From: Nereocystis luetkeana
Taxonomy: Eukaryota; Sar; Phaeophyceae; Laminariales; Laminariaceae
Assembly (NCBI GenBank): GCA_031213475.1
Contig: JARUPZ010000019.1
Span: 6,932,870 to 6,996,869 of the forward strand
Direction: 5' to 3'
DNA length: 64,000 nucleotides
Made by a program: the position numbers and the translations under genes. Shown here one piece after another: positions 9,634-44,500 of this stretch; positions within the stretch are counted from its first letter, which is position 1, and each line of letters begins with the position of its first letter. A model generated the notes under the pieces. It did no database searches. It saw only the letters and a program-made list of their open reading frames with translations, and was not told where the DNA came from.

Positions 9634-9744
9634 CCGGGGGGGGATAGTAAATAGGGCCAAATATTGTTCGTGAAAACGGGTAAAATATCTATATTTTTGT
9701 CTGTACCGTAGGCCCTACCTGGTATTTACTATGGTACCCCGTAC
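9634..9744. mobile_element. Palindromic MITE-like element (family A) carrying a TACCTGGTA insertion
   Basis: It matches the family A pattern: GTAAATAGGGCC on the left, GTACCGTAGGCCC and TTTACTATGGTACCCCGTA on the right. Other copies read GGTCC-TA-TTTACTATGG at 9712-9730, but this copy has TACCTGGTA in place of the TA. The ends are more worn than in other copies. Confidence 0.7.
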
Positions 9745-10819
9745 TAGCAAAAGAGCGTGCTGATGCGGCACGATTGTGGGCATGCGGCGCGCGTGTCGCA
9801 TACGTATCATGGCCCCTCACGGTGCAGTTCGAGCACATCCCCTCCCTACCACAGCAGCAGTGGCTGCTTCGTTTGCTGTCTCCGCGTGGCGGAAGCTGTA
9901 ATCGAAATGTGACTCCGACACGTTCTTCCACCTTCAAGTCGAGCTAACATTACAAGTAGGTCCAACAGCAGGATGCGGCTGTATAGTCTGCACCCTGTCC
10001 TGCTGCTGCTGCTGCTGCTTCTGCTCGTCTTGGCATTGCCTGCCCCAAGCGGTGACATTGGATGTCCGCTCATTAAAGAAGAGCAAACGGCACAACCGTA
10101 CGTACTCTACTACTGTACTTACAACTTGCCAAGCACTACTAACTACCAAGATTATCATCTCGAGCGGATGCGAGTTACTGTTTTATTTCGGCGCCAAAAA
10201 ATAGGGAGCCCTTCCGAGATGGCTGAAGTCCAAATGTACTATTAATAGCTTCTAGATATAGGATAGGGGTGCTACGACCGTCGAAACCTACAACCGACTG
10301 AGATCTTCGAAAATGACGAAACTAGCTTCCACCAACGCACGCACGTTGACGACAGTGACAAATATCCTCCTGCGGCAGCTATCGACACGATTACGGGATG
10401 TAGCACGCACCGAATGAGGAAGAGAGAGGCAGGCGCCTGGGAAAACAAAAAGGCCCCCTGAGCGAATGAAGCCGCTGCATGTGCTCGTTAGGACAACACT
10501 AATCAATGCCCCATACCCGTCGGGCTATGTCAGGCACGTGGCCCTATAAATAGTGGGCTGTGCTATACCACCAGGTCTGTACCTACTACATACAGTACAA
10601 TACACCTACTAGCGTGCGGAACAGGGCACTGCTGTAACAAGAAACAGGACACTGCCGAATTAAGAAAACAGGAAAGCTGGCCCAGGCTGGGCTTCTCACT
10701 TGAAAATGGGTGCATTCTACACGATTCAGTGCAACAACTTCGGAATCTCCAATATTTGCCCCCGGAAAAAAAAATCCCAGCCTCTGGCTTTCTTTGCGCT
10801 TGTTTTCATAGTGTGGATG
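9745..10819. other. No recognised gene; one short signal-peptide-like ORF
   Basis: A plus-strand frame at 9973-10245 (90 codons, ATG start) begins MRLYSLHPVL followed by a run of ten or so Leu and LALPAPSG, which looks like a secretory signal peptide. The Leu run is encoded by a CTG microsatellite (10002-10020), so the resemblance may be accidental. The rest is unlike any family I know. The short block GGAAAGCTGGCCCAGGCTG at 10671 recurs in diverged form near 46300. Confidence 0.3.
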
Positions 10820-10896
10820 ACTCTGGCCGGAAATATAAGCCCACGTTGGACTCTGATGTCAAAACAAAACGGATGTAATATTTCCCGGCCAGAGTA
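10820..10896. mobile_element. Palindromic MITE-like element (family C), short copy
   Basis: ACTCTGGCCGGAAATATAAG at the left end is mirrored by TAATATTTCCCGGCCAGAGT at the right. It is about 77 bp and non-coding. The GGAAATRTAAG core links it to the copies at 37571, 42228, 42343, 49029 and 61993, whose outer bases read GGTACCACT-like. Confidence 0.65.
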
Positions 10897-11378
10897 ACTC
10901 CATAGGCGAAAAAGGGACAGGGGAAAAAACGCCTACGTATATACGTAAAGCATCGGCCTCACGCAGCAACCCGGCCCGGCCTGTAGGTGACGGGACAGGG
11001 GACGATACTCTTAACACCGGAACCGCGCTTCAGGGAGTTGTACGTATGTATTCCGGGGGGGCATATGTCGTAATAATCAGAACCCACGATGGACCCGAAA
11101 AAAAACAGGTACGTACGAGTACCACCTTATGTTTACACACCATATATACCAGGTATATATATTGTGTTCTTGTGTTCCCCTTAATAGTTGCACACCTCGG
11201 ACAGATCATACAGATCATACAGATCATGACATATATATCTATCTGTATATGATCTAGTTCCTCACCTGCCGTTGTGAGAGGTTGTGCAGCATCTGCAACA
11301 GTACAGATCCTAACCAGGAAATATGAACTATATATATTAGTATACAGATTTTACGGGTCCCACCCGGCAAAATGAGCT

Positions 11379-11487
11379 ATTACGGGGTACCATATTATAT
11401 AGGACCTACGGTACGTACAAAAACCTATGTATTTCGTTATTTTTGCTCACAATATTTGGTCTTATTTACTATGGTCCACCGTAATAG
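11379..11487. mobile_element. Palindromic MITE-like element (family A)
   Basis: ATTACGGGGTACCATATTAT at the left and TTTACTATGGTCCACCGTAA at the right form the terminal inverted repeats. The interior AGGACCTACGGTACGTAC and CAATATTTGGTC match the family. Left-arm mismatches break the perfect stem. Confidence 0.8.
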
Positions 11488-11759
11488 ATCATAAATACAA
11501 TATCGGGAATAGATGATCTATCTGCCTGCCTTGAAAGATCTAGATCATCAAACAGTGGGAAACGATGATCTATTTGTCCGAGCTTTGAACGGTTGTACAA
11601 CACGTGGCGTGACGTTATTGATGTGGGGGAACAAAACGATCAGAACCAAATGTGGTAGGTGAGCATGGGGGAGATACACGATGACCTTCGTGTCCATAGT
11701 GGGTTCTGATTGCCGTGCCCTCCCGGTAGAACTGTTATAGATCGCTTGCCCTATTAATA

Positions 11760-11866
11760 CTACGGGGGCCAGGACAAATAGGACCTACGGTACACACAAA
11801 AACCTATATATTTTGCTATTTTTACCAACAATATTTGGTCATAGATACTATGGCCCCCCGTCATAG
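11760..11866. mobile_element. Palindromic MITE-like element (family A)
   Basis: It begins CTACGGGGGCCAGGACAAAT and ends ACTATGGCCCCCCGTCATAG. The interior AATAGGACCTACGGTACAC and CAATATTTGGTCATA are diagnostic. It is preceded directly by CTATTAATA, a motif over-represented in this window. Confidence 0.8.
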
Positions 11867-12392
11867 TACACACTCCTTGAATTCTGCGGCTTCAGATTTC
11901 ATCTTCCTTACACAGGGAATGTATATCCTGCATGAGGTCATGTAAAACCCATAGTACGCACGATCGAAGCATCACACACAGCTTGCGAAGATAAGTTTCG
12001 ACAAAATATTCCTCGTCTCACAGCTGTTGTTTTAACAATTGTATAAATACCTCATTCAGTTTAGGCCTGGCAACAATAAATACTTAATCTGAGAAAGCCC
12101 TAGGACCGATCTTATCGGAGAGCTTCTCTTTCTAGAATTTCCAGAAAATTCTCTTTCTAGAATTTCCAGAAAATTTTGGATTGTTTAATTTGTACCAACA
12201 CATGGAGGCGTTCTGTCACAATTAGTGAAAACTAACAAAGGGAAACATATCAGGGAAGTGTAATCTTACATAGTAGGAAAAAAGAAACAAAAAAAAATCC
12301 GAAACATAATAGAGTTGCGCAACCCCCCCCCCCACCCCCCCCTTGAAGTCCTGAAAAATTCTGGGAAAAAAGCTCTCCGACAACAACGTCCC
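11867..12392. other. No gene seen; short tandem repeat
   Basis: AT-rich with no supported gene. TTCTCTTTCTAGAATTTCCA is repeated twice in tandem with AGAAAATT (about 12122-12178), preceded by TTATCGGAGAGC, a block that recurs at 15725. A poly-C tract lies at 12320-12342. Confidence 0.5.
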
Positions 12393-12489
12393 TTAACCCC
12401 TTTAGAGCCGCAGCCCCGTTTTGGGGACAATCCACTCAAATTGTAAGTAATCTGTCCCCAAAACGGGACTGCGGTCCTAAAAGGGTTAA
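12393..12489. mobile_element. Palindromic MITE-like element (family B)
   Basis: TTAACCCCTTTAGAGCCGCA at the left and TGCGGTCCTAAAAGGGTTAA at the right, with CCCGTTTTGGGGACAA and TTGTCCCCAAAACGGG facing each other inside. It is a nearly perfect 97-bp hairpin. A detached half copy (GTTTGTCCCCAAAACATGAA) lies at 12920-12955. Confidence 0.85.
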
Positions 12490-13026
12490 AACCTCATTGT
12501 GACACCAAATTTGAGCAGCCTTGATCGTAGGCTATTGCATACATGCCTGGCAAGGTGTAGTGTCGTCTTCTTCGGCTGACGGCGGCCACCACCCCGACCC
12601 GGAACCCCAGCCCTGACCCTTCACCTAACCAGAGGCCTACGTATTGTAGTTGCTGTGCCAGCTGGTCGTTGTGCTTGGAAAGGCTCTACTTGCTGTTGGG
12701 GCGTTCGGGCACATCTAAGAAAGTTCGCCTGAACGGGCAGACATACCCAAACGCTTGGTGAGAGTGCATGCACCTTATCAATGTTTTGGTCGTTGCAGCG
12801 TGAGCTTTTCGAGAAGCGTTATATCGCATAACCTTACCACCACTTTTTTTTTGCCAAGAACTGCATAAAATTATTCCAGCACTCGGTGCTAAATAGTTTT
12901 TTTTTCTCGGAAAAAAATGCACCTCAAGCGGTTTGTCCCCAAAACATGAACTGCCGAGTTAGAACACCGCAACGAAACTACTCGTACAAAGAATACACCT
13001 ACAAGGGTGTTGCTGTGTACATGAGC
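12490..13026. other. No gene seen
   Basis: No open frame here has recognisable protein content. Contents: a half copy of family B at about 12918-12957, several poly-A/T runs and otherwise unique sequence. Confidence 0.4.
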
Positions 13027-13030
13027 TGAC

Positions 13031-13094
<64 letters not shown>
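13027..13094 (+). repeat. (CTGT)n microsatellite
   Basis: About 17 uninterrupted CTGT units. This explains the apparent minus-strand frame with repeated Thr-Asp-Arg-Gln. The following 80 bases still contain scattered CTGTGTCT words, suggesting a decayed extension. Confidence 0.95.
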
Positions 13095-13096
<2 letters not shown>

Positions 13097-14145
13097 GCTA
13101 TACGTTGTCTGGCATGTATCGGGGGTACTAGAACTGTGTCTATCTGTGCGTTACCAGGCATGTATCGCTCGGTGCTGCTCGGTATTCCAGCTGTGTCTGT
13201 ACGTGATTGGGCATGTATCGGGCACCTAGAGGCTGTGTCTCTCTGGGCGCTGTTTGGGCATGCACCGCTACGAAGCTACCCGGTAGTAGAGCTGTTGCTA
13301 GAGCTCTACGCTCCACGGGTGCTCGCCCTGCAAAAAAAAAAACGTGACCGGACGGTCGTGACGCCGTGACGGCCCATCTCAAGCCGCCCAGCAGGTGCAA
13401 ACGGTATTCCGAGTACGTGCACCATCGGACGGATGCCCGAAAAAAAACAAAAACACAAAAATTAATAAATTAAAAAAAAAATACCAGGTACAAACAAAAA
13501 AACAAAATACACCCACGACAACTCCACGGCGCCACAAAGGATACCAGGTACCTGGTACAGCAGTACTTCATTCTTTCACTGTATTGTTTTCTTTTTTCCA
13601 TCCCATTTATTATCCTCGCCTTGCTCGCTGCTCTCCCTCGTGCTGCTGTGGTAATAGTCGTAACTCAGATCCGGAGTCACTAAAGCATGCTCGTTTCTCC
13701 CCCTCCCACTACGACACCTGATAAAGGACAAAAAAAGGTGCGATTCCTTCGCGTGATGCAGCCTGTTGCGAGCAAATCTACGTACTGGTGTACACGACGT
13801 ATGTATACTCGTGCGTATACGTAGCTCATAGCCACCGGCAGCAGACATGCTTCACTCTGTTCGTCCTACATAAGTGTTACAGCAGCAAATTGCATGACCA
13901 CAGGTATCATTCCACGTACATACAATTGAAACCAGTTGCCCGCGAAGACAAAAACAAACTTCTCCCCACTTACACACACCAATTTTCTTGTATGTATGTG
14001 CGAGGAACGAAGGAATGACTTCAAACTCGTTGAAAAAAAGCCTCCGTACCGGACAGGGGAAGAATGGTTAACTAAACAATGCTGTCATTTTTCTACGATG
14101 GACAACGAGTCAGCGCGGATCGCGCCGTTAGCTCGACAACCATGG
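13095..14145. other. No gene seen
   Basis: Unique sequence with A-rich runs (13436-13500) and three TACCAGGTA/TACCTGGTA motifs, two of them overlapping head-to-head at 13542-13557, directly followed by TACAGCAGTA. Short open frames lack any domain. Confidence 0.4.
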
Positions 14146-14821: not shown

Positions 14822-14928
14822 TATTACGGGGGACCATAGGGAAATAGGACCAACTACTGCTGGTAAAAATAGGTCAATATATAGTTTTTGTGTGTACCGT
14901 AGGTCCCATTTACTATGGTCCCCCGTAA
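14822..14928. mobile_element. Palindromic MITE-like element (family A)
   Basis: ATTACGGGGGACCATAGGGA at the left and ATTTACTATGGTCCCCCGTA at the right give long inverted repeats. The interior has AATAGGACCAACTACTG and GTACCGTAGGTCCC. This copy has ACCATAGGGAAAT where others have ACCATAGTAAAT. Confidence 0.85.
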
Positions 14929-15180
14929 GAGTGGTTGACCCTCGAAAAAAAACTTAAGGTCGAAGAAAAGAGTTTCGAACCCCGCGCCATGTTGTGGGGT
15001 TACTGTTTATCTTGATTTTTTTTTTAAACCGAAATCGACTGCAGAAAGCGCCTAGCGTGTGTATGTGCCAAATTCCACGCGAGTCGGCGAAGAAGGGAGA
15101 AAAAGTGCTGTTCCCTTCTCGCTATTATAAGCAATGAGAGGCACGGACCCTTACATCGTGGGGGAGGGGGGGGGGAGAGC

Positions 15181-15287
15181 CTACGGGGAACCATAGTAAA
15201 TAGGACCTATGGTACATACAAAAACCCATATATTCACCTATTTTACTAACAACATTCGGTCCTATTTACTATGGTCCCCTGTAATAG
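15181..15287. mobile_element. Palindromic MITE-like element (family A)
   Basis: CTACGGGGAACCATAGTAAA opens and TACTATGGTCCCCTGTAATA closes the element. The interior AGGACCTATGGTACATAC and CAACATTCGGTCC fits the family. It lies only 250 bases from another copy, same orientation. Confidence 0.85.
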
Positions 15288-16450: not shown

Positions 16451-18178
16451 TGCTTCCTGGTGAAATCAAGGTACATACGGGCGTAGGCCCAACCCGACAC
16501 CCAACCCCTAATCCTGACCCCAACCCGGGCGAAAAACGGCCCAAAAACGAGCGAGAAACGCGGCTGCGCCGCTTTCGCATTTTTATTTTTTTCAAGGAAG
16601 ATAACCAAAAAAAGGTACACCTGTTATTCTGAGAGTCAAAAACAGGTACAGTCTGAAATCGAATCTAAACGCACCCCACGACCCATCACGAGATTGGTTG
16701 GCCTGAACACACATATCACATATACTCGTCCGTGAGGGACAATGACACAATCTTCCACAAGTACGCTCGCGGGGAGCAATTCTTATTCCTCGACGTATCC
16801 AGGTTCATTCAGTTTGGACGGCTCAGGTCCTGGTGATGCCAGATCTGGGTTGGATCAGGGTGCTAAAGTGGGAGCAGGGTCTCAGAAGCAGAAATTCTGG
16901 TGGCAAGCGCGTGTTTTTACTCGGCTTCACAGTGTAGCCGTGTCGTACTCTGCAAAAAAAAGAGTGTTACGGCCGGCTATACCGGTACGCGATACATGGG
17001 CTGCATGGTTTGTTTGTGCGTACTTGTGCAAACGTGCAGACGCACCTGTCCAGGTGCGCATGATGTTCGAACAAAACGTGAGATGACAGTGAGTGAAAGG
17101 TGAAAGCGCTTGGAAGAGCGCGAAAGAGCAGACAAGCGGCGGAGGCGGCAGCAGCAGTGAAACACAAAGTACACCATAGGCAAGTGAATTATGTGGCTGT
17201 TGCAAAAACAAACAACCAAGAGCGGTTGAAAAGCCAGCCATGGTAGCCATATATCCAGGTGTACCTGTATCACCACGCCTCAAAAACAGGTGCGACGTCG
17301 CATTCGGCCAATCGCGTGGCTCGTGGGGGGTGTTTTTCACTCGGTTTGAGTATGTACCTGTTTTCGAGGGAAAACGGACTTGGTACACCCGATTCTGGTT
17401 ATTGACGCTGAAAAAGAGTGGTTTTTCGTCAGTTATGACCAAAAACGACGTTGGACGTACTATTCTGAACGGAGCATGATCTCGTAGTATTGTGAATAGT
17501 ATAGGAGGTTTTACCCTCAGCGAGTGGCATGCTTGGACAAAAGCCGTCGTAACAGGCGTCGTCCCTTTCCCCCCCGGGTATACACATTATTGCGATCATT
17601 TTTGATCGGGCAGAGAGTTCAGCATTCCCACTGCTCATCGATTGGCATCGACTTGCCAGGTCACGCTCTCGCGTTTTCGGTGAAGGGACAAGACTCAGAA
17701 AAACGTCTTGCTGTGCACGAATAAACTCATAAGACGAGGTTCGAACCCCATGCTGCTCGATCTACAAGTCACAAATCACTCAATAGGTGCCTACTACCTA
17801 TACAGTACAGCCTACTATTAATACTTGTTTATTGCTACGGCACAATGCGCACATGCCTGGTAAGCCAAGACGTATAATATCATGCGACGCGTGCTGTGTT
17901 CTTACGTGTTTCGAATTCACTTTTCACGTAGTAGCACATTAAGTATAGGCCTAGGAATAAGAGCAAGCCTGATAAGAAAAAAGGGTCATTTTGGGTAGAA
18001 GTTAAGAACCTAGCCCTACGAAAGGGACTTCGTTTTGGCGGCCCAGATAAGAAAGAGCAATACAAGAAAGAGTAACACACGGGCCGAGTTTCAACAACAA
18101 ACAGGCATTTTTTGCTTTCGCATTGATCTCAATAAGAAACTCGTGCCGGGCCCTTACACTTGTACTGTACTACTGTAC
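16451..18178. other. No supported gene; one weak open frame
   Basis: A plus frame from ATG 16742 to about 16900 reads as a Ser/Gly-rich peptide (MTQSSTSTLAGSNSYSSTYP), with GSQKQKFWWQ further on. It could be a first coding exon, but there is no confirming domain and no following exon that I can identify. The rest, including the frames at 16927-17442, shows nothing recognisable. Confidence 0.3.
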
Positions 18179-18287
18179 TATTACGGGGGACCATAGTTAA
18201 TAGGACCAAATATTGTCAGTAAAAATGCTTAAATATAGAGGTTTTTATGTATACCACAGGTCCTACTAACTATGGTCCCCCGTAATA
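18179..18287. mobile_element. Palindromic MITE-like element (family A)
   Basis: ATTACGGGGGACCATAGTTA and TAACTATGGTCCCCCGTAAT are exact reverse complements at the two ends, so this is among the best preserved copies. The interior has TAGGACCAAATATTGTCAGT and ACCACAGGTCCTA. Confidence 0.9.
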
Positions 18288-19428
18288 CTGTGCAGCACAG
18301 TACACTACATACCTGGTACAGTACAGTGCAGTACAGCACAGTACCGCTTCGTCACCAGCTGACGATGCACTTTTTCAACATAACGGACCCGGGAGGTCGT
18401 CGCTGCGGATATCGCTGGCGTCAGCTTCGATCTTGCACCTCCGCCTCCAAGTGGTGATCGCCCCGACTCCACCCAAAATTTTATTATCGCGCAGGGTCTG
18501 GGCGTGCACGTCAACCACGTGTCGCCATCTTTCAAAGGCGTGCTTCGGCGTGCGCCTGAAGCCTGCGCTCGGCGCCACCGCTGGTGCGCCCGTGATGGTG
18601 TGGGATGGCAAGGGCCTCGGGTGCTACTAGAAAGTGCAGAGAGATACAAGCGCCGTGGTAACAAAAAACTACCACACAAGAGGTACTACTGTACATTGAT
18701 ATGCAGTGAGCAGAGCGGACAATATCATGCCATATTCATCGTACTGGAAATGACAGTCGCGACATACACATCCTATGACATAGAGAGAAGTTCAAAAGAG
18801 ACAAGAAAAAATCAAATCGAAAACGAAAAACAAAAAAAAAGAGTCGTGCCCCGCCCCCCCCCGAAGGAAATGTGGCAGACAGTACAAAAACAACCAAAAG
18901 AAACATTACCACCACATATAAAACAGAGCGAGATTTAAGCACGAGAAAGAACAGGCAGACTGAAGCACAACAAACAAAGAGCGCCCTCCAGGTAGCCGCA
19001 GCAGTGTGTGGTACGCGTAGCACAGACAGGTTCTACCTAATAGTCGGCCTGGTACCTTGCTACTCTGTCTGCCATCTCCTTACTGCTTTCGTCAACCGAG
19101 CCCCACCCCCGGAGACAATGCGTCAGGCAATACAAAACAAACATGAAAACAGGCTCGTCATACACCCACGAAGCAGAATTTCTTTCATAAGGACAAGAAG
19201 GAAGAAATATCATAAAAATTAGAGAAATTCACGGAGGATCAAAGCACGAAAAACAAGAAAAAGAAGAGAAAAGAGAAAAAGAAAAAGAAATATCGCGTTT
19301 GAAGCAGCTGCAGCAGTTGGCGGTACGAGTAGCGTGGAGGTGTCCCACCAGCTACAGTAGTCGGCCTGATGCTTGGCTACCCTGTCTGCCGTCTCTTTCC
19401 TCCTTCCGTCCACCGTGGTTTACGTTCT
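18288..19428. other. No supported gene
   Basis: A GC-rich block at 18390-18640 is open in several frames on both strands and might be a decayed coding fragment, but no domain is recognised. It begins with a chain of TACAGTACAGTGCAGTACAG words (18300-18345). From 18780 to 19300 the sequence is strongly purine-rich (AAAGAGACAAGAAAAAAT type), with no gene. Confidence 0.4.
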
Positions 19429-22320: not shown

Positions 22321-23800
22321 TCCAACTGCCAGAACATACGTTTCAGTCCAGCTTCCTTGGTACAGTCAGTTGGAGCATACCTGGTACGCAACAACCAAAT
22401 TATCTGCCTCGCACTGACCGGCCAGCTCAATGCGCATGGACATGAAGCCGTTCGTCAATAAACTGCTGAATGCACACAGACTTACTGCATAACGATTCCT
22501 TGACAGCTAGACCTACTCCGTACAGACCTTGCCTGGCGTCTGTTTTTTCCTGACCTACCCTACCATAAACACAACGTACGCAATACGATAACTTCCCTTG
22601 TGCGGAATAGAGGTTGAGGTTCTACACCCCCCACAAGAGGTGGGGGGGTGGGGCGTGAGCTGATGGTGCCTCTCGAGCGCGACGGCTTCGCGGCCGAACC
22701 CAATTGAGCGTGAGGCATACCGCAAACGGCTATATTGTGTTTCGTTCCAAGTCCATAGTATCTGGTAGTTTGTTGCTGGTGGCTGCAGGGGGCAGTCTTC
22801 GTGTGCCACTCCCAGCACTCGCTGCCATGCATGGAGAGGAGGCAAGGGGCGCTCTTTCCAAATGTACAGCGCGAACAAGAAAATAACATACTTTCGTAAG
22901 AAAACACGTTTCAATCAGCACCTTCGGTGCATAAGAAACCGGGTACACACAGGAGAGTGACCTATTGGTAGACTTGAGCAACGAGATAAGAGTCTGAGGC
23001 TCCCTCCAAATACACAGGGAGGTTATTACTAATAGTGTTGCCGGGCCTTTACTACTACCTGGTATATACTGTTTTCACCAGTAGATTCCTCCGCGAAAAC
23101 ACAACTCTACCGCCGCACGTGCTCTGTATATACGAGATCGTACAGCACGTAATGCTCTTCACCGCATGTGTCGTATCTGTGGGTACATTTTTCAGAGAAC
23201 GCCACGTACAAATGGTATGCTGAGAGTGCTGGGTTCTGCAGAAGTCACCGTCGCGGGCGAACACATGGAAAACCACAACGTACTGGATACCAGGTATACT
23301 GCTGCTGCAGGACGAGCTGGTATTATTAGTATAAATACGGGTATTATTTTCGAAGCTCAGTCTATCTATTCCAAGAGAGAGAGCGGGGAGTGGCATCGAT
23401 CGGACTGCGCGAGATGCGAATACATGCCGGTACATGGTGGCAAAATGCAGAAGAAGAAGAGAGTTTTTGAACATACAGCGGTGACTTCGTCGTACATACG
23501 AAAACACATCCTCATCTCGGGCTTTTACTCTGTAGTGCCAGGTGCCAGGTACTTGCTATGCTGCTGTATGATACCTGGAAAAATCATGTGCAGACCAGAC
23601 CGAAGAGGAGAGAGGCACTATTAATAATCACCCCGCTCTGATTGCTTGTTATGAATCAAACCATCAGAACACGGCTTGCTCGAAGGGTGAGCGTGCGGTA
23701 GTACGCAAGAACGCACAGCTTGACGGGAAACGCACAAGCAAAACAACCCTCCGCCCCCCTGCTCCGCAACTCTACGCACACTGCACACACGCGCACCCAC
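22321..23800. other. No supported gene
   Basis: Unique sequence with TACCTGGTA-type motifs at 22378, 23056 and 23288. It could hold introns and later exons of the minus-strand gene whose first exon ends at 23801, but I find no exon that continues its domain. The open frames at 22555-22914 and 23055-23507 look random. Confidence 0.4.
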
Positions 23801-24318: not shown

Positions 24319-25920
24319 TTTTGAGACGAGAGGAACACCCACGCCACCTGTGCTCTATCTTTTCGAGCTTGCGCGAGCTTTTGGGGTGGTTGGCTCCAAG
24401 CAACAACGAGCAAACCTGTCTCGATAGATGGGCGCACAATATACGCTGAGGTGAGCGAACGGCTTGCGTTTGGTACACGAGGTTGAGCTTAGAGTGCCTC
24501 CCAATCTCGCAGTACGTTCGACTGGCGGGGTCTCCAGCCAGATCAAATTGCGGTAAGCGTGACTGGGGAACGGGAAAATTACAAAACATTACATTTTTAT
24601 TGGCCAAGCCTCTCAAGATGCCGAGAATTCGACCAACGAGCACTCTCCCTTTTCTCATCGAAGATTTTTCGTAGAAAATGTTCTGTGGCCGACAAAGGCG
24701 AAGAAGGTGTCAACTACCTCTCACAACGAATACATATCACCGCACGAGCTATCCAGGCGCATACGTTTGTAGTCACGGCTAGCCATTCAGTCATTGCGCC
24801 TAACAGCAGCAGTGATGCAATGATGCAGTGGATGGATGGATGATCTTAGCGTTCTGGTGTTCTGGGAGCTGTGCTCTGGTGCCTGCTTTTGTATCTGTAG
24901 ATGCCACGCTTCTGCCGACTGTTGCGGCTGCGCATACATACTCATATCCCAAACACAATATCATACCAGTACCAGATACATACATACCAAGTGCCGGTAC
25001 GTATTATAGTACTCGTATACGTACAAAAACTCTGACCACAAAACTGACTGGTGTTCTGCTTACACCGCATGGTCCCATATGGCTGTGCCCAAATTCTTTC
25101 AGGATTTTTATTGTAGGCACAATCGACTCTGAACACTTGAATCTATACACCAACAGTAGTATAGTGTGCCAGGTAGTGGAGTAGTTTTGCAGCCAAGACT
25201 TCGCAGAGCCCTACGTAGAGCTAGAGCTCTAGAGCCCGAGAGCTTTAGGTCCTACTGTAGGCCTGTACCCCTGGTGATATGGATCTAGAGATCAAGGGCT
25301 AGGCTAGAGAGCTCTTCCACTATTAATAATAAAAGAAGAGTAAGGGGAGGGGGGGGAGGGGGGGGGGGGGGGGTGAACTCAGGTGCGGACAGAAAGGCAT
25401 ATAACACGTCAGCAATATATACGAGGGGTCAATTTCAAAGCACAACACAAAGCAACAACAGCAGAGCGCGAACCGTCTGTACGCCGCAAACGACAACTGC
25501 TCTCCCCACCCCTCCAGAAAGACTGCAAGGCACACATAAATCTATACCTCGAAGATAGATCGTTTTCGACGGACAAACTTTCAACGCGACGGCTGAGCGG
25601 GCTACGGCCGGACTCCACCACACCAGCCCATCCCCGAAAGCCGAGGCGCTCGCGCCACTACGAGCCGTGATCTTCTGGGGGGGGGGCGTTAGACTTCGCC
25701 AAGCCGTAGTTTCAACTTGTTTGTTCACCAGGCAACCCTCTCTACAAAATCATCCACAGATATCTCCAGACCCTTTGCGAAACCAGTAAACACTGAACTA
25801 CTGGTGGTTTGTTTGCGGGGAATCTACTGTACACCTACCTGCACCTACCTGCACCAACCTCTGCCTACGGCTGACTGCTGACGGACGACGCACCACCTAC
25901 CTCTACCTCTACCTCTACAG
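24319..25920. other. Upstream region of the signal-anchor gene; otherwise no gene seen
   Basis: The 5' flank of the minus-strand gene occupies the left part; no core promoter element is identifiable. A G-rich tract (mostly G, with an A or two) lies at 25345-25373. A plus frame at 25383-25670 is rich in Arg, Ser and Pro without a domain. CTACCTCTACCTCTACAG-like repeats at 25895-25920 form the pyrimidine-rich acceptor of the next exon. Confidence 0.35.
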
Positions 25921-28089: not shown

Positions 28090-31032
28090 TTAGCCCCTCG
28101 ACAAGATGCCCGCCGGTCCCCCTGTCCCGCTCGTGACGGCGGCTCCCGACTCGCCTATATCCCGCGGAAGAAAACTAGCTACGCCCGCCGATGGAGTGTG
28201 TCCACTCGCCTCGTTTTTTCGCTGATGCGCGATGGGCTCCAGAGCGGACGGGAGCCCTCGTTCCTCCATGCACAGCGGGTCGGTTGGGTCCAGCCTCGCG
28301 CCGATACCAACCTTGTTATCGCTCGCGCTTCTACTGACAACATCTCTGGCGACACCTCTGACAACTTCCCCGCCGTGACCCTGAGCCTGCGCTCCCGATT
28401 CTACCCCGTCCGACACAACCGCCGCCTGTCTTGAACGCCTTCTGTGCGCGCGGTCCGAATCCGCCGCGGGGCTGCTGAAGAGGCACCCATCACTATCGAC
28501 GCCGTTGACGCCTCCCTTTGGTCCGAGGAGGGGCCCTCCCGGCCTGGTCCAACTGCCACGCCTCGCAGTTGCATCACGCTGTCCGTGACCGCCGCCCTGT
28601 TTTTTCACCGCGCCAAGTTTTTCAGCTTCCGACTTTTCCCTTCCTGATGAATCTTCGGACCCCGTGCCCTGCCCGGTGCTCTCCTTTTCAAAGGCAGCGC
28701 TGCTAGGAACGCTCCTACTGTGGCCGAGGTCGAGTGCGGGAAGCACGGGGCCTCCCGTGTCCACCTCCAAGGTAGACTTACCCAAGTCCGTGAGAGAGTC
28801 CACCGGCGGTGAGTCGGGCAGCGACGGTAGGGTTGGCAGGGGTATCGCCAGCTTTGCACAAGCCGAGGGGCGCTGCTGCTGCGCACGCAGCCTCGACTCC
28901 CGCTGTCCCCGCGTGAGAGCTTGAGATACGTGATTTGTCGCAGATATATCGGCGACCACATCCATGGGTTTCAGACCAAATGCGTCCTAGAGAGCACAAA
29001 GAAAGGCGCAGGCGATCCGGTCGAGGCCCCGTAAGAAAACTGTACTGAGTCTCTATCTGGGCACCACAAGGCGCATTTTCGGTTTTCGCTCGACCCGTCG
29101 CTCGGTCAAAGATTTAATCACTGACAAATAGACTGCTTTACGAGCATAAAAACGATCTCTGGCATGTTCCATACATCTGGGTCGATGCCCCGTGAAACAA
29201 GTGGGTGGCGGCATGGGCGAATTCATTGGTGAAATGCGGCCACAGGTAGAGCGCCGAGGTGTAGGTGGCGAGTTGTCTGGCACAGGGCAAGTTTTTGCTC
29301 GAACGTGGCCAAGTAGCGCGTAATTCGTTCACCACAAGAGAGCAATGAGACAAGCCTTTCGAAAACTGGCTGACCGCCGTCATCAAGAAGCGCACGCTGG
29401 GGAAAATATTCCCCGAGAAGCATGACCGCTATGCTTCAACAGCGTGGCAGCGTATCGTATGATCGGTACGACCCTATTCTGGTCCGAAGTTCAAAAATAA
29501 AGCATCGTGACATATGCCTGGTACAGCTGTACACTCTATTAATATTGTTACGTACTGCCGTACGATATTCACGACAGTGTCGCCGAATCCAAAATGGTAA
29601 AACTACACGCTTACGGCAACGTACATACTCCTTCGAATAATACATAATTATGTTTCACATACGCACCGGGTACGCATTACCAGGCGTATCACATCGTATT
29701 GCCATAATCGTAGTGTGCTTTCTTACCTCCGCGTCGGTATCCGCCCCAGCGTCCACAAGGATTGCGCAGCAATGAGCGTCTCCGGCGGCTGCCGCACAGT
29801 GAAGGGGGGTCCAGCTGTTGTGCGCCTCATGCCGCACATTTCCCCCAGCCTCGATCAGCTGCTCCGACGGCGAGCGGGAAGTCCATTGTATTACATTGTG
29901 TAAGTCTTGTTGAACGAGGGTGCTCGTGATGTCGTCAGTAAATTCATGCCGGGCGAAAAAAAAAATCAAGAGAAGACAGCGCCGAACTCTCAAGGCTAGG
30001 ATACACACTACACAGTTCGTGGTCGTTATACACTCGACTGGCCCTACGTTCGTGGGGCAGCCCCCCTTTTCACTTCCGCGTTTACGCCAATCGGGCGAGT
30101 GGCTCTGTACCTTACAAGAAAAAAAACTCGTTTTTTTTTTCGTCCATCCCATTCATTACGCTCGCCTCTCCCGCTCCCTCCGAGAGGTAACTCAAAACCC
30201 GGGGTCATATAGCGGGCGCTTCTCTCTCCCCCCTCTCTTCCCACTTGTGGTACGTGCCTTGATTTTCATCGCGGGAATAATTCGGCATGTTCTTCCCTCG
30301 TCGACTCGCGTCCGACATATTATAAATAGGATCATATTTTGTCGGGGCAGAGTGACAAAACAATCCCATGGCCGGTACATATAAAGCGAAAACAAAAAAG
30401 GCTTTTAAATTATTCGAGTTTTTCAAGACTTGCAAAGGAGCGAGGTAGTCACTCGGCGCCGAGTGGCTCTGACCGGCTGAAAAAATGCGATGTATGTACC
30501 AGGTACACACGAACCGCTCTACCGTGGCACCAGTCGTGATAACGAGGGGGGCTCTTGTTTAACCGCTCTACAGCAGTAGAGCCGCACCTACGTTCTGAGG
30601 GGACGACACTGCTACTCATACTATTTGTAGCGTGGGAATTACTAGTGTGGGGTGATATTTGGAGTGAAAAAAAGCAACATGGACGTCGTTCCGAACATTT
30701 GTTCTGTACGTACGTACGTACGTACGTACGGCCCTTAGGCGTATCCCCCCCTTTCTGGTACATACCGGTACACATTGCGTAGATATCGTACACCTACCTG
30801 ATCCAGGGCTCCCACCCGCTTCCACGTGGCTGCTCGATGGAGAGCTGTCCGTCCGTCACGACTCTCGACATCCACGCTTGCCCCGGCTGCCAGCAAAGCC
30901 CCCACGGCCAACTTGTGCCCACGGCAGCAGGCGTGCATCAAAGGAGTCCACCCATTCGCATCCTGAGCGTCCAAAATCGCTTTTGCCGCTGTCAACTCTC
31001 GGATTATGTCGATTTGCCCAAGTTGGGCCGCC
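28090..31032 (-). CDS. Ankyrin-repeat protein, three exons seen, 5' end missing
   Basis: Exons on the minus strand are 31032-30798, 29858-29727 and 28986-28090. Joined in frame they give about 420 residues. Exon 1 holds an ankyrin repeat tail (AAQLGQIDIIREL) and a full repeat (NGWTPLMHACCRGHKLAVGA) plus DGRTALHRAATW. Exon 2 adds LIEAGGNVRHEAHNSWTPLH and AILVDAGADTDAE. Exon 3 completes the last repeat with DAFGLKPMDVV and then runs for 290 residues of low-complexity, Ser/Gly/Pro-rich, probably disordered sequence to TAA at 28092-28090. Donors are CAG|GTAGGT and GAG|GTAAGA. Acceptors are GAGCAG|CTG, CTCTAG|GAC and a weaker GTGAAG|GGC beside a G tract; the last could be wrong by a few bases. Ankyrin repeats bind other proteins; the partner cannot be inferred. 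Earlier exons were not found. Confidence 0.8.
29055..29430 (-). pseudogene. Decayed coding fragment inside an ankyrin-gene intron
   Basis: Within the intron 28987-29726, one minus frame (29423-29223: EYFPQRALLDDGGQPVFERL, then CGERITRYLATFEQKLAL) stops. Protein-like sequence then continues in another minus frame (29230-29138: HFTNEFAHAATHLFHG). The switch of frame at about 29225 suggests a broken gene copy or an unused exon. The source family is not recognised. Confidence 0.35.
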
Positions 31033-31375: not shown

Positions 31376-32669
31376 CAGGTGAAACTGCTGAAGATTTTTT
31401 TTGTTTTTATTTTCGGAACTCGAATACGATCACCTAAAAATTATTACCGTAGGTAATTCGTTTCGAAATTGCCCGTACGCATGGCTTTTCTCTGCTTCTG
31501 GGGGTGATGCTACTGTACTATAACGCAACAACAACCCCCCCTTGGATCCGATCGATTCACGTCGTACTAATAAATGGTGGGAGGTTTTATCAACGTTCTT
31601 CCAGTCGGCAAATACGACGAGCAGCACCACAATTTTGGCTCGCATTTTTGGGTCGATCGATTCCGGGACACACTACGGGACATACCTGGTAGACATTATT
31701 ACGAGTACAATATTGTCGTAGGTGTGGGTGTTGACTGCCATGTGTGTGTGTTTGGTCGCGCGATCGGGTGTTGTTACCGCTACTTACAGCAGTGTACTGG
31801 TATTGATCAGTGTGGCGAAGCAAAACAAAAATGAATGTGCACCACCCGTGAGGAACGACGTGATATATATACGTACCTCGTAGCACTATACACAGGAGCA
31901 TCGGTGACTACGATACCCTAGGTCAGAGCTTGGCGCCGCGAGCGGTATGTTCTTGCGCAGTGTGCGGCTGCATTTTGATTTGTCCTCACGACTTGTCCCG
32001 CGACTATACGCCCCCAGCTGTTGTTTTTTGTCACGAGTTATGTACGTACCAGGTACCTACAGTAGTACGAGATTGTCTCTGAGAGGTGAAATACGCGAGG
32101 GAGGCACTTCCCCCTTGGGTTCTTATTTCACCAACTCGTGCTCACATCGTATTTCACGAATGCTGCCATTCTGTCTGTCTTTTTGTCTGTATTTGAATAG
32201 CGTGATCCAGAGCGCTTAATCCCCGCCTTGCCCCATGGGTAGGGAAGCTGGACAACTATCACGGTGACCCCTGATATATAGGCCCGAAACGGGGAGAAAG
32301 AGGCTGAGCAATGAACTTCTGAGGAAAAAAATGCATGCAGCATCGCTGGAAAGCCTATCAACAACCGCGTACTTGCAGTAGACAATATTTTCAATTCACC
32401 CGGTGGTTCTCGAGATACAAAGCACGAAAGTGGGTGCTGTGGCGCTTATATTGGGCATATTTACTATGGGGCTCCGTGATAGCAGAACACCGGGTCCCAT
32501 GCCGCGCCGAGGCGCGGCCGTGGAACAACCCCGAGGCAGTTCTAACAGTCATATAACCAGCCTAGCTGCTGACTCACAATTTTGAATAACCATTCTTGCA
32601 GCTAAACGCGGTCGGCCAAATCTATGCCAGAGGCCACTGGTTCTTTCTACAGTAGAACATTGGTGCTAA
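31376..32669. other. No supported gene
   Basis: Unique sequence upstream of the visible ankyrin exons; earlier exons might lie here or further right, but no ankyrin signature is seen in any minus frame. TACCTGGTA-type motifs occur at 31683 and 32047. Confidence 0.4.
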
Positions 32670-35400: not shown

Positions 35401-35550
35401 TCACATTTCGGCGCAGAGTAACAGCACACTGCAAGTACTATTAATATTATTATAGCACCATGTACTTACAAACTACTGCTGTAATACAGTATCGGCAACG
35501 CAGGGCTAGCGCGACGGGCGGAGCCGTGGTTGTACCGCTACATACAGTAG

Positions 35551-35660
35551 TATTACGGGGAACCATAGTTAACAGGACCTATGGTATACATAAAAGCCTA
35601 TATATTTAACAATTTTTACTAACAATAGTTGGTCCTATTAACTGTGGTCCCCCGTAATAG
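35551..35660. mobile_element. Palindromic MITE-like element (family A)
   Basis: TATTACGGGGAACCATAGTT at the left and AACTGTGGTCCCCCGTAATA at the right. The interior AGGACCTATGGTATACATAA and CTAACAATAGTTGGTCC is close to the copy at 39202. This copy shows the uninterrupted sequence CCATAGTTAA and CCTATATATTT against which insertions in the 39202 copy are judged. Confidence 0.9.
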
Positions 35661-35876
35661 TACAAGCAAACGCTCATATTCATTTTATTAATACACACAT
35701 TGTCATAATGCCGTACAGTACGCCGCACGAACCGTGGTCGAGATTTACGCATACAGCTTCTACGTGGGATATACCGCTGTCGTTGGTAAATACGGTAGTT
35801 TACTCGAAGCTTTACGATATTTGTTAACAGCAGATTCACACATTCACACGGTGCACCGATCAGCCATGAGAGACTG

Positions 35877-37975: not shown

Positions 37976-38571
37976 TTACATACAAATACGTATTTAGTAC
38001 CTGGTAAGACTATAATAAATAGTACAGCTATCCATTCTCTTGTGAACTCCAAACTCTTCTCGGCGCAGGTTATCGTAAATTGCTTCATCTTTGTTCTCTG
38101 CTCACAGCAGTGTCTTTGCGACACGCGCAGCGCGTCGTGTCGCCGTTCGATTCGTTTACAGCCACAAGTAGACGTATGTATTCGACCGCTGTTGATCCTC
38201 CCTTCGCTTATGTTGTGATACTTGTGCACCAACCTGATCAGCAGGTGGCCACACGCAGTAGCAGCAGCAGCAGCAGCAGCAGCGAGGGGTTGCTTTCTTA
38301 CTGTGGGAATTGGGGACTTGGGGGGGGGTGTGTGCTCCAGGCTCTACAGCAGCAGCCTCAAGCCTCATCAAGCCGAGTCTACGTACGTACCTGGGATATA
38401 GGTTCATCGCATCAGCGCGGAGAGTCTGGCCCTCGGCCTTGCTCCCTCGGTTACCTCCGCACGCTTTTCAAGCCAAGCTACTGAGCCGAGCGGGGTCTCT
38501 GCTGCCCCTTCATAAATCTTCTTGATAAGAGCCGCCCAGCGAAGTAGACAGCAGTGAGTGGGTCAAGCAAG

Positions 38572-41500
38572 ATGACATCGGGGAGAGTGTGCCACTTCAA
38601 GCTGGTTCTGCTCGGAGACACGGCGGTTGGGAAGTCTTGTCTCGTGGTGCGTTTCGTGAGGGACGAGTTCTTCGAGTACCAGGAACCTACGATCGGAGGT
38701 ATGATACTCGTACATACCATATGGTACTCAAAAGTATAATACCCTGGTGGTACTCGTAGTGTGATGGATGACGTGATGTTGTGCTCACATTATTAATATT
38801 AATACCAGGTAGCTTAAAATATAAAATCCTGCATGTAGACTATGTAGACACGGAACAGGCTGTATCAAGAATGCATCTCGATTGAAGAAAACGAACATAT
38901 GACAAGTGAAATAGCGCCCACGACAGTACCATACCAGACCTTAAGGGAAACGGTACCAGCGAGCTGTGGTATATCATCCCGTATCCCGTACCACTTGCAA
39001 CCGAACAACACCAGGAGCACATCCATGATATTATATCTACCCTCGAACAAAACAGAGCCGGAAGAAGAGAAAAGAAAAACACGAAATGGATTAAAAATAC
39101 CAAACAGTTTGTACGAGTACCTATTATACCAGGTATCTACGAGTAGTACAATCCGTACGAGTATCTATCGTAACAGGTACGAGTAGTACACATGGTAATG
39201 TTATTACGGGGGACCATACCTGGTAGTTAATAGGACCTACGGTATACATAAAAACCTACCAGGGTATATATTTAACCAATTTTACTAACACTATTTGGTC
39301 CTATTAACTATGGTCCCCCGTAATAGTACGCTGTAGCACATACAAGGGGGGCTTCGCCGTGGGGCAGCTGACGCCCGCCTGCGGCTTCGCGCTTTCCTGT
39401 ACCGTAATCGTCGAGGATGGCATAGATCAGAGTCTGTAAATGCGACGTTACTGCCAAGGGGGGCATTCAAATATATCAATGTTATGTTGTCACAGCAAGC
39501 ATCACTACAGGGCCCGGTGTTAACGCTTTTAGGACTGCAGTCCCGTTTTGGGGACAAACCACTCTAATTACAAGTAGTTTGTCCCCGAAACAGGACTGCA
39601 GTCCTGAATGGGTCGAGAAAGGTTTGTTCGATGCCTTATTTTGTGTGTTTATGTAACTTATCATCAGCAGGTACGCCTTCAATGTCATGGTCTTCCCTTT
39701 TTCCCGGCCACTTTTCAACCGCTTTCAGCGTTTCATGTTTCTTACTTTCGCGTGTACATTCCGCAAGAACCGCGTCTCACGTACATGTAAAGAACACAGA
39801 ACACCTCACTCATAAATGTTGACCGCACGGGCGTACTGGGTGTGTGTGTTTGTGTTTTTTGGAAGCAGGGGAGACGACACCGAACGGACCGTTAGCGTAT
39901 TCATATTGCATACGAGTACCAGGCAGCAGTCTTCTTGACGGCAACACCGATGGCAAAAAATGTTGTGATTTTTTGCGTGTACGTATGAAGTGCCATATGC
40001 TCCGGATCGGCCGCGTTGCTCATCTTGGGTGACCGTCGATCGCTTCTGTTTCTTATACGAAGCATGTATGTTTCTTATGTTGCTGCCCATTTTGAGCCGT
40101 GTTTCTTAAACCCCATTTCCTCTACGTGTCGACAATTTAAGCATGGTCTAGTTCACTTCTTAAGATAGTATTCCCGTGGGGTAAATTTGTGAGACGGGGG
40201 ATTTGTTTTGTGTGGTGCTTCTCTTTGTTCAGGTAATCAAGTGATTGCTCCAAACAAGGTCAGCTGTGAGAAATCGATTTTTTGGGAGAGGAGGCAGCTT
40301 TGTTGGGTGCCTGATGCGGCCTTGGGAGGTGTTGGGGCAATTTCTTATTCTTCAGCGCCGTAGTGCTTTCTGACAGATGCTCAGGTGCCGACCCCATTTC
40401 GCTTCTCGATTTATACATAGACATTTTCTCCTTAATAGTCGACACAAATGGTTAGTTGTAACTTTTATGAAACGTAAACAATCAGGGCTTGAATCAATTA
40501 GGGGACTCTGGCACCCTCAGGAATGCGTCAAGTACCCGCGCATGTAGAAACGACCGGGAATTGGACTAAGGAATTTGCAACCAAGATCCGTATTTCGTAC
40601 GTACAGTAGCTGTGGAATAGTTGATGCAACTATGGAAGAATCGTGAGTTTTTCTGCCCTTTCTTGCCTTGTTTCGGGCCCAATAACTTACTATTAATACC
40701 ATCATGGGAACGTAATATTGCCTCCCGCAACATGTTCGGCGACGACTACGAAAGAGATAGATCATCCGTCTAGAACAGCAATAATTTGACGAAGGCCATT
40801 TCTTCATCGGTGATGTAGCCATTGCGCCATGCTCCCTGGCGTGAAATGAAACACTTTGCGAGCGTTTTGCGAGTTTTTTGTGCTCTATACTAGTTTGCAA
40901 CTTCGAATACACGAAAACACCTCTTGAATCGTTTCTGGTTGCCTACGACTGCCGTCTGGCGCACCCGACGCCCTCACGCACCCCATCAGAAGCATCCCTC
41001 CATTTCGCGGGCTGTAGTATCCTGTGAGGAGCTGTAGCTGTCCGCAAGTGAAGTGCAAACATTCCGCAGTTTTTTTTTGTTTTTGTTTTAGTTTTTTCTC
41101 ATTTCGTGCGCCCCAATTTTCGCCCAATTTCGACCACTGGAGTACCTCTATGTCGAGATGTGGGCGTCTGTTTGAGTATCTGCGGGAGATCAAGGTCGAG
41201 AGGAACACGAGCTGCTGTGATGGAACTCGTTCACGATCGCTCACGGGTAAAAGCACAAACCAGCCGAAGTTCTAAACCCAGCGTGTTAAAACATCGTTTT
41301 CTTTCTGTCCCGATAAAACACTGAGGGATTAAAGTGACCGGAAACCCGGGCACCAGGAAACGCTTGGGTGCCAGGGTGGCCTTTTTATAACACCCATGCT
41401 GCCGCGTACTGACTGGGTATACGTGAATAACGTACGTCAGAGGAGAGCAGGTGTCTCGCGACGGGCAAAACAGTACCGGCAGACTTCCCCGTACGTCCGC

Positions 41501-44500
41501 TCATGGAACTCTTACTATAATTTGAAGTAATACACGGGTAAACGTACTACTGTAGACTTCGAATTGTCATCGCTCACTGCTTCTGTTGTCTTGCAAGCCT
41601 CCAAGTCTTGGCCAACAAATGCCTGGTACGAGCGCGTCCCTGTCTTACCACACCGTTAACCCCTCTACCAGGTAGGCCTTAAGGACTGCACTCCTGTTGT
41701 GGAGATGAAACTCTTGGAATCACAGCAGAGTCAGGTTTAGGTACCCTCTTTTTGGGCCTTGAGGGCTGCACTCCTTGTTGTGGGGACAAAACACTTGGAA
41801 TTAGACTCGGGTTTAGGTACACCCTTTAGGCCTTAAGGACTGCCCTCACTCGTGTTCTGGGGGCAAATCACTTGAAGCTAGACTCAGGTTTAAGTTGCTA
41901 CAGCAGTGCACTGCTGCGCCGGTTAAGCAATACCTGCGTCTCCTGTCTTACCTGTGCTGCCAAAAACACACTTGGTGTAGACTAGTTGTACACGTTTCAC
42001 CCATCTGGAATGACGAACGCTGAACACGTTATATAATGAAAACATCGTACTACTGTATTAGTAGTACGTACACACGCACCCACTGTCAACATACCTGGTA
42101 CCCGGTACCACTCTGTCCCTGTATATATGCACTACCCGGCACCACTCTGCCCCTGTATATATGCACTGTTTTTATGTCCAAACGACCTTACATTTAGGGA
42201 CAGAGGGGTACTCGATACTGGTACGGAATACCACACTGGACGATAATATAAGGAACGTTTATGAATTATGATCAAGAAAAATTGACCCGTATATTTTCAT
42301 ACGGAGTGGTATGATAGTATTTCGTTTACGCATAATTTGCCTGGTTCCATTTTGGGCGGAAATGTAAGGACCGCTGGGGTATTATAATAATATGTACATC
42401 AAAACAGTCCTTATATTTCTTCCCGAAGTGGGACCCGGTACTGCTGTACCCGTAAATGGTAAATACCTGTGCCCGCCGCCAGCATGGGCTCGTCGCATCA
42501 CCGCATCATGCGCCTCCTCTCTCGCTCACCCTGCGCGGGTATCTCGGCCACGTCCGTGTTTGCCCGATTTTCCGACATAAAAACGCGTACGAGTAGATAC
42601 TCCGCATGATATGCTGTCTGCTGTGCATGGTGTGATGAGATATGCGTGTAACACCCGTAAGTTTCGTGTGGAGAAGTCGATACCACTCAATACTGATGCG
42701 GATAGTACTGCAGCACTCCTGTACAACAAACATCACGAGTACGAATACTCCACCAGTTTTCCCTTTCCGTGCCATTCGGCAGGTTCTTATCGCAGCGTTC
42801 GTATTTTTGTCTGTAGGATATTTGGTGCCAGGTATGTGGTATGTATGTGTTGATATTGCACACGACGGTTAGGGGTAGGGATGTGCTATCGATACCAGGT
42901 ACAAGGTATGTGGACCGTGGACGACGCGCAGTCATCCCTATCGTCAGGCAGGGCAAGCTGCACCCTGCCTGTGGACGCCCGAAACCTTGAGCTCCTTGGC
43001 CGTTTACGGACACCCGGCCTGGCGCATGGTATAATAGATGTCGAGGTGTTTTGACTCCTCGAAAGTTATCAACATGCTAAGCGATGATATGCTGCATGCA
43101 GTCGTTGTTGATCTCGCATTATTAATAGAGCGTTGCCACTATCTAGTTTGAAGAGCACATCGAGTAGGTTTCAATATATAGGAAAATCAAAACGAGAAAA
43201 ATCTAAGTCGGTGTACCAGAATTACAGCCAGCTCCGCTCAACCTTTGGTGGGGGTCTTAAAGACTGTACTATTATAGTAGTAGTAGCCTACCTATTTTTT
43301 TCGTGCTGTGTGGACTTCTTACCCCCTGGTACTGCTGTTCAGGTTGTAACAAGTGCAACTTACGCACAAACTTTATACCTGGTACGATCGTACGGAGTGT
43401 ACTGAAGCGCGGATCTTCTACTGCAGTATTAGGGTCCTAGACCCCTGCTGTGCGTACTGGAGCGGCAAACAACCCGCAGAAATTTCTTCCCCAAAGGCTT
43501 TCTGAAGAACGAAAAAAGCATGGTACACAGAGGCAGCTTCGACGTAACCGATATTACTGTAGTATAAATCGAGTATACCTGGTACCTGGTACCTGGTGGT
43601 ACATGATACGAAAATAGTATTATTATAGTAAGGAAGTATCTCTCCCCCCACCCCGCCCACCAACCACCCCTCCTCCACCCCCGCCACCTCTCCAACCCCA
43701 CCACTCCTCCGCCTCCATCCCCAGCCCCCCTCTACCCCCCCCCCCTCAATGTCTGCCTGGTCGGTGAAAACCCGACGCGCTCCGTCCCGGCATTGTAGGG
43801 ATGCGAGGGTCTATGGTCATACTTCGTACGACAACGGTGCATGACGATGAGTACACCCTCCGCGCCCACTCCCCCCACCCCCCCTCACCACGCCTCCAAA
43901 CATCCAGCGGAGTTACACGGTTGCCACAGTCCAGGCCCATTGTAGGAACGTATCCTTTATTTCTATAACCTCTTGCCTCTTGCGGCAATCCCCGTCCGAA
44001 GACGTGCCAGACGACGGCACATCCCGCCTGCGGCTTTCCACCTGCTTTGTGCTGAACATCCAGATGAACACCCATAAAAATCATCCGTGAGCATCCGTGA
44101 ACGCCCGTGAACTCTCGAGGGCGTTGCCTGCGGCCACGATTTTTCTCCCTCGCGGCATGGAGGAATGTTTACGTTGAATGACCTCGTCACATCCCTCGTG
44201 CCTGCTTGCAAAAAGTCCCTCGTGCGAGTATTGGTACGCACACCCTGCAACGGATTTGGTACCAAGACTGGTGGCGGAACCGTTGCTGTAGATTGCAGGA
44301 CTTGTTCAGAGTACGCATGTTATCATACGAGTACAGCAAGCAGTGAGAAGCGCACACCGTTCGGGTACCTTGGCCCGTTCCCATACTAGTTATGTACTAC
44401 AACGCGTATGAGCCGCTTGGGTAGCGTATAAGCCGCTTGGGCGGATGACCTGTGACTGCTGACATGCCGACGCCAAACCCCGCCGCCGCCGCCGCCGATG

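Follow-up and report, generated by a model that had tools for sequence, protein, structure and literature searches.

An abundant 9-mer inserted at TA sites in Nereocystis luetkeana and its probable origin as a transposon excision footprint

The 9-mer, family A and their copies

We analysed a stretch of 64,000 nucleotides of Nereocystis luetkeana (assembly GCA_031213475.1, contig JARUPZ010000019.1, positions 6,932,870 to 6,996,869), hereafter the window, which carries many copies of the 9-mer TACCTGGTA / TACCAGGTA, copies of an inverted-repeat element that we call family A, and a second short TA-bounded word, TATTAATA. TACCTGGTA and TACCAGGTA are reverse complements, that is, a single 9-mer on both strands. 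As CCAGG and CCTGG are the same sequence on opposite strands, the W of the motif CCWGG, as written in the first-pass annotation of the window, means orientation, and we correct it in this sense. The 9-mer is produced by insertion at a TA with duplication of the TA, and is probably an excision footprint.

Besides the window we examined 10-kb stretches of the same genome, which start at round-number positions of the contigs C1 to C10 and have zero overlap with the window. The window and the first 21 stretches (210 kb) make up 274 kb, and eight more (80 kb), which served as a fresh test, bring the sample to 354 kb, including 2.5 kb of N. The data sets of 344 kb and 264 kb mentioned below are those of 354 kb and 274 kb minus the stretch L001. 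Where no scope is given, counts refer to the 354 kb.

The window holds 24 copies of TACCTGGTA and 20 of TACCAGGTA, against 0.5 to 0.9 expected under Markov models of orders 1 to 3 (0.9 at order 3), in agreement with the figure of about 44 exact copies given by the first-pass annotation. In the window no 9-mer with 8 or more copies exceeds it in enrichment, and its single-substitution neighbours have 0-5 copies each there, with the exception of TACCAGGCA (10 copies). The first 21 stretches added 73 copies and the fresh test 25, where 0.66 were expected, giving a total of 142 copies against 3.6 (order 2) or 2.7 (order 3) expected. Leaving the window aside, there are 98 copies in 290 kb, or 0.34 per kb, very unevenly distributed (0 to 9 per stretch), and an extrapolation to the ten contigs, which measure from 12.4 to 21.9 Mb and sum to around 154.5 Mb, gives around 50,000 copies. 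The borders of the 9-mer are sharp at both TAs, and its outer flanks are diverse. The excess is real and far beyond chance. The copies in the window, together with one variant insertion, are the following:

3117..3125, +, 9-mer copy
4197..4205, -, 9-mer copy
7004..7012, +, 9-mer copy
7504..7512, -, 9-mer copy
7933..7941, -, 9-mer copy
9716..9724, +, TACCTGGTA within a partial family A copy; paralogues have TA alone
11147..11155, -, 9-mer copy
13482..13490, -, 9-mer copy
13542..13557, inverted dimer TACCAGGTACCTGGTA; copies 13542 and 13549 with one TA in common
18310..18318, +, 9-mer copy
22378..22386, +, 9-mer copy
23056..23064, +, 9-mer copy
23288..23296, -, 9-mer copy
30497..30505, -, 9-mer copy
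31683..31691, +, 9-mer copy
32047..32055, -, 9-mer copy
37998..38006, +, 9-mer copy
38791..38811, compound site TATTAATATTAATACCAGGTA; two TATTAATA and one 9-mer copy (38803), TAs in common
39127..39135, -, 9-mer copy
39217..39225, +, TACCTGGTA in the first arm of the family A copy 39202-39325; paralogues have TA alone
39257..39266, +, TACCAGGGTA, insertion of an 8-bp variant into the family A copy 39202-39325
41666..41674, -, 9-mer copy in a tandem unit; empty counterpart 41822-41847
42092..42100, +, 9-mer copy
42893..42901, -, 9-mer copy
43376..43384, +, 9-mer copy
43576..43591, +, direct dimer TACCTGGTACCTGGTA; copies 43576 and 43583
45426..45434, +, 9-mer copy
45533..45541, -, 9-mer copy
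46432..46440, -, 9-mer copy
50049..50057, +, 9-mer copy
52731..52739, +, 9-mer copy
53078..53086, +, 9-mer copy
55044..55052, -, 9-mer copy
57610..57618, +, 9-mer copy
60109..60130, compound TACCAGGTACTCGTACCTGGTA; 9-mer copies 60109 and 60122 flanking a TACTCGTA
60411..60425, compound TACTCGTACCTGGTA; contains 9-mer copy 60417
60930..60938, +, 9-mer copy
61150..61158, -, 9-mer copy
62138..62153, +, direct dimer; 9-mer copies 62138 and 62145
62394..62402, -, 9-mer copy
62741..62749, -, 9-mer copy

Family A is an inverted-repeat element of 109 bp that starts with TA-TTACGGGG and ends with CCCCGTAA-TA. We found 15 complete copies, 11 of them of 108-111 bp and most with a TA at both limits. Being short, with inverted ends, many copies and a duplicated TA, it has the characters of a miniature inverted-repeat transposable element (MITE) of the TA type. 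In the window we recorded:

9645..9745, partial, holds the 9716 insertion; limits approximate
11378..11486, mutated ends
11758..11865, mutated ends, adjoins a TATTAATA; limits by eye
14822..14930, complete, 109 bp
15182..15286, shortened left end; limits by eye
18179..18287, complete, 109 bp; TAC precedes the left TA
35551..35659, complete, 109 bp
39202..39325, complete, 124 bp, with two micro-insertions

Insertion at TA sites

The first-pass annotation had deduced an insertion at TA, with duplication of the TA, from four comparisons between repeat copies, and all four are present in the sequence. Relative to many family A copies, the 9-mers at 9716 and 39217 are exact insertions of 7 bp and TACCAGGGTA at 39257 is an insertion of 8 bp at a TA, and the copy at 41666, once its flanks are joined into the empty form, aligns with 41822-41847 without a gap (26 bp, 92% identity). 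When the 15 complete family A copies are aligned, each of them shows two near-identical arms with a TA at an equal position. This arm-TA holds TACCTGGTA in 2 of the 30 arms (window copy 39202 and L028:3204) and is unfilled in the other 28. Since the partner arms show that the two filled arms lie in opposite halves of the element, these insertions were independent. A family A copy at L017 93-208 has CCTGGTT at the TA where the window copy 39202 carries CCAGGGTA, and this may be what decay has left of a scar at that position.

We also scanned the repeat alignments of the 344 kb without regard to any motif, taking every gap of 5 to 20 bp. This gave 172 insertions, 34 of which had duplicated a TA, and these 34 could be classified as follows:

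i) Forms of the 9-mer: the exact TACCAGGTA in three cases, TACCAGG inside a longer insertion in two and TACCAGGGTA in one.

ii) Other forms: TATTAATA at four sites, and TACGAGTA, a TACGAGTA dimer, TACAGTA, TACCGGTA and TACCTCGTA once each.

iii) TACGACTA, with eight cases, all in one dispersed repeat with identical surroundings, which are probably one shared difference.

iv) The remaining 11 insertions, of single or telomere-like forms.

A directed test of the 142 sites found alignable paralogues for 9 of them; the 9-mer was an exact insertion of 7 bp in three and its 7-mer was contained in a longer insertion in two, and a filled paralogue was found at none of the nine. A laxer test (274 kb, 116 sites) gave empty-type alignments at 19 sites and filled-type alignments at 12. 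As many of these alignments are short or AT-rich, we did not count them, except for L013:2623, which is empty at L017:6281-6333 (94% identity), and relied on the directed test and the motif-blind scan. Furthermore, L028 has at 6894-6908 a double micro-insertion, TACTCGTACTCGTA, where the paralogue has a single TA. Thus, the alignments of paralogues, the scan and the family A arms support the insertion in several unrelated repeats.

Regarding the orientation, the single sites of the 344 kb are equally divided between CCTGG (61) and CCAGG (60), and the core is symmetric apart from its centre. Of the 117 9-mer sites of the 274 kb, 83 have the target R-TA-Y, a context that only 34.8% of all TAs share. 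Four dimers are direct and three inverted, and the occurrence of both arrangements argues against simple tandem slippage. Pairs at the same site numbered 7 (1.2 in permutations) and neighbouring pairs within 1 kb numbered 74 (58.9 in permutations), and 0 of 500 permutations reached either value. This clustering may be due to nearby re-insertion, or simply to gene avoidance, which is absent from the permutation model.

The single-substitution neighbours of the 9-mer amounted to 162 in 344 kb against 69.5 expected, with 141 exact copies, which is an excess of around 92 against one of 138 for the exact copies. Taking these neighbours as decayed copies gives around 0.07 substitutions per site (around 7%). 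Substituted forms are over-represented at each position of the 9-mer, the last excepted. It appears that the scars are neutral and have built up over time without being maintained, and they need not be recent. The active spreading of a tiny sequence that had been suggested for them was not demonstrated, because the decay of around 7% per site points to accumulated relics.

TATTAATA and other words between TAs

If two bases were kept from each end of family A, its excision would leave TA-TT-AA-TA, which is TATTAATA. This word has 17 copies in the window and 74 in the whole sample, against 2.0 (order 2) or 5.0 (order 3) expected. At the three positions in front of the TA, T, A and C respectively were found in 12, 14 and 12 of 19 family A ends (274 kb) and in 57%, 55% and 52% of the TATTAATA copies, while the values for all TAs are 28, 27 and 21%; the target TAC-TA is therefore favoured by both. 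On these grounds it is very likely that TATTAATA is what family A leaves behind on excision. Its occurrences in the window, apart from the compound site listed above, are:

2827..2834, TATTAATA, predicted family A footprint
10240..10247, TATTAATA
11752..11759, TATTAATA
17816..17823, TATTAATA
23619..23626, TATTAATA
25321..25328, TATTAATA
29537..29544, TATTAATA
35439..35446, TATTAATA
35686..35693, TATTAATA
40691..40698, TATTAATA
43120..43127, TATTAATA
46228..46235, TATTAATA
52474..52481, TATTAATA
58677..58684, TATTAATA
62724..62731, TATTAATA

Another class, TACGAGTA/TACTCGTA, was found 77 times against 11 expected, with only 2 insertion cases seen. Its core of four nucleotides may be compared with that of Minos, a Tc1-like element whose footprint is TA-CGAG-TA. 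Among the variants of the 9-mer with other core lengths, TACCGGTA was found 15 times (5.8 expected), TACCAGGGTA 6 times (1.1) and TACCATGGTA 4 times (0.4), while TACCTGGGTA and TACCTAGGTA were found 0 times each. The occurrence of TACCAGGGTA and TACCATGGTA and not of TACCTGGGTA and TACCTAGGTA suggests, from small numbers, ends beginning CCAG. Two TA-bounded words with six core bases are also frequent, TACAGCAGTA with 29 copies against 0.9 and TACAGTAGTA with 22 against 0.6.

Other features were observed in the same DNA. Family B is a near-palindromic repeat of around 97 bp, bounded by TTAA in its best copies (12393-12489, 53091-53187, 39519-39613 and others); it looks like a piggyBac-type MITE, which would excise without a scar. 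The patterns of families A and B matched 0 stretches each in IMG/VR. A large inverted repeat of AGCTAGCTG-rich units, with TA-bounded arms, lies in L014 at 3424-5162. The window apparently contains two exons of a Rab5-like GTPase, at 38571-38699 and around 46647-46805, with an intron of around 8 kb between them; the second exon matches Pfam Ras, and the first exon and the joining were determined by eye. A reverse transcriptase fragment lies at 20453-21013 (-), for which Ectocarpus (54% identity) is the only named eukaryote among the best 120 of 215 matches. Finally, contig C1 starts with a telomere of the TTAGGG type, which, like the Rab-like exon and the size of the ten contigs, marks the DNA as eukaryotic.

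Excision footprints and other explanations

The parallel case of TATTAATA and family A leads us to read TACCWGGTA as the footprint of another TA element, and TACC(A/T)GGTA was probably left by the excision of a cut-and-paste DNA transposon of the Tc1/mariner type with specificity for TA. Footprints of a larger TA-targeting element were one of the alternatives named in the first-pass annotation, and this is the best reading in view of that parallel, the equal orientations and the R-TA-Y target. Our observations comprise the insertions with the duplicated TA, the preferred target, the even split of the orientations, and TATTAATA as a parallel case for which family A is the likely parent; the parent beginning CCAG, the overhang and the enzyme are inferred. 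The element would insert at a TA, preferably in R-TA-Y, and duplicate it. On excision, a staggered cut inside the element ends would leave a few terminal bases on each flank, and end joining would seal them. The ends would begin with CCAGG, each with a 3' overhang of 5 nt, so CCAGG would pair over CCAGG with four standard pairs and a central A-A mismatch, whose repair toward either strand would give TACCAGGTA or TACCTGGTA in equal numbers. As each jump would leave a scar and need not add an element, scars would pile up neutrally and elements would not.

The process itself is known, whereas the length of the footprint, its number and the missing parent are unusual. The statement that no system of this kind had been described was too strong, because Sleeping Beauty and Frog Prince leave, after the TA, a footprint C(A/T)GTA of equal design (PMC3878927). 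As in our case, the TA is duplicated, the core is symmetric but for a central A/T and the footprint is made by end joining (PMC3878927); the differences are that the core of the 9-mer has 5 nt and not 3, that its extrapolated copy number reaches tens of thousands and that its parent was not found. Stowaway-like and mariner elements leave footprints derived from their ends, mainly through end-joining repair (PMC4561436), and family A resembles the Stowaway-type MITEs with mariner transposases in its length of around 109 bp, inverted ends, TA duplication and short end-derived footprint. A comparable case is Ectocarpus, whose genome is rich in Tc1-mariner MITEs, short non-autonomous elements with almost 12,000 copies (PMC12477816). 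The word "footprint" is absent from the main text of that paper. Among the literature matches listed, we noticed no report of a genome-wide accumulation of footprints. Of the 217 papers that contain the letters of the 9-mer, the 20 listed were, judging by title and opening of the abstract, all on other subjects.

Several results weigh against the excision footprint. Firstly, no element with CCWGG ends appeared among inverted pairs with TACC[AT] at both ends within 8 kb (274 kb), pairs with TACCAG at both ends within 9 kb (354 kb), TA-ended inverted pairs with the first 8 bases identical within 3 kb (264 kb), or TA-starting 14-mers present in at least 4 loci (274 kb). Thus, 142 scars were seen without a parent in the same DNA that has 15 complete copies of family A. 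The best TACC[AT] pair, L013:2485-8521 (TACCTCGCACAA), lies in a different dispersed repeat, more copies of which were seen in L008, L017 and other places. TACCAGGCA was tried as an end sequence, but its extensions have no more than a few bases in common and then cease to recur. The parent may have died out, or it may be a rare or a large element. Secondly, 4 of the 9 testable 9-mer sites were imprecise or ambiguous (L014:3808, L019:8093, L025:2874 and L028:3602). For TATTAATA, eight sites could be tested and an exactly empty paralogue was seen at only three, the other five being imprecise, or ungapped with 1 or 3 differences; at L017:254 the TATTAATA site and its paralogue have a single-base difference and no gap, at 67% identity. 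The TACGAGTA class is weaker, as among its 17 testable sites one was exactly empty and one had a double insertion, while at 10 both paralogues carried the word and 5 fitted none of these descriptions. Thirdly, the four longer variants (TACCAGGGTA, TACCATGGTA, TACCTGGGTA and TACCTAGGTA) recurred 0 times in the later 80 kb. Finally, the footprint of Sleeping Beauty is printed as TAG(T/A)CTA in PMC2874221, and Tc1/mariner footprints are given as 2-4 bp (PMC7913693), a range outside which the core of 5 bp falls. We therefore claim that the 9-mer works like a Tc1/mariner footprint, and not that it is a proven member of that group.

An unlikely explanation is that the 7-bp unit itself spreads as a micro-insertion at TA, by a transposase or by templated end joining, with no parent element on the site. 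The failure to find a parent in up to 354 kb, the uniform core, and the compound and clustered copies above permutation would agree with it. However, the TATTAATA class has an equal anatomy plus a matching parent, and a process by which a fixed 5-mer is inserted is not known to us. Moreover, TACAGTA matches the Sleeping Beauty form of a known transposon footprint (PMC3878927). In its strict form, in which an enzyme or repair reaction would put TACCTGG directly into TA sites without needing any full-length element, the TA-flanked pentamer would be the smallest mobile unit known, and this we regard as rather doubtful. It is quite improbable that the scars are relics of interrupted gap repair, or of internal deletion of small inverted-repeat elements, instead of clean excision; variants with 4 or 6 core bases do exist (TACCGGTA, TACCAGGGTA, TACCATGGTA), but the dominance of the 5-base core (142 copies) speaks for a cut at a fixed position and not for deletions that end at random.

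Methyltransferases that target CCWGG are known, and the extreme enrichment and near-palindromic shape of the 9-mer could also suggest a functional word (a protein-binding, methylation or HIP1-like motif) that arose by point mutation and was kept by selection. This is very improbable, since in repeats the 9-mer originates through insertion, all positions but the last show more substituted forms than expected, and paralogues aligned without gaps over the 9-mer differ at 5 of 9 positions; the origin without insertion and the conservation that mark a HIP1-like word were not what we found. That the 9-mer is ancestral and the empty copies are deletions between two TAs, an outcome that the first-pass annotation had said would overturn the insertion, is hardly credible, because, although TA repeats could mediate deletion, 28 of the 30 family A arms are unfilled and the two filled ones lie in opposite halves of a near-palindromic element.

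If the excision footprint is the true explanation, each transposon family would have left a countable and orientation-neutral scar per departure. The lifetime excisions of a family could then be measured from one assembly, beyond what copy counts give, and the scars would record that a family was once active even if its elements may have disappeared. A footprint of 5 nt would also widen the range quoted for TA-type elements. It is worth taking into account that the short words with the highest enrichment in a genome may be scars of repair, which should not be mistaken for binding sites.

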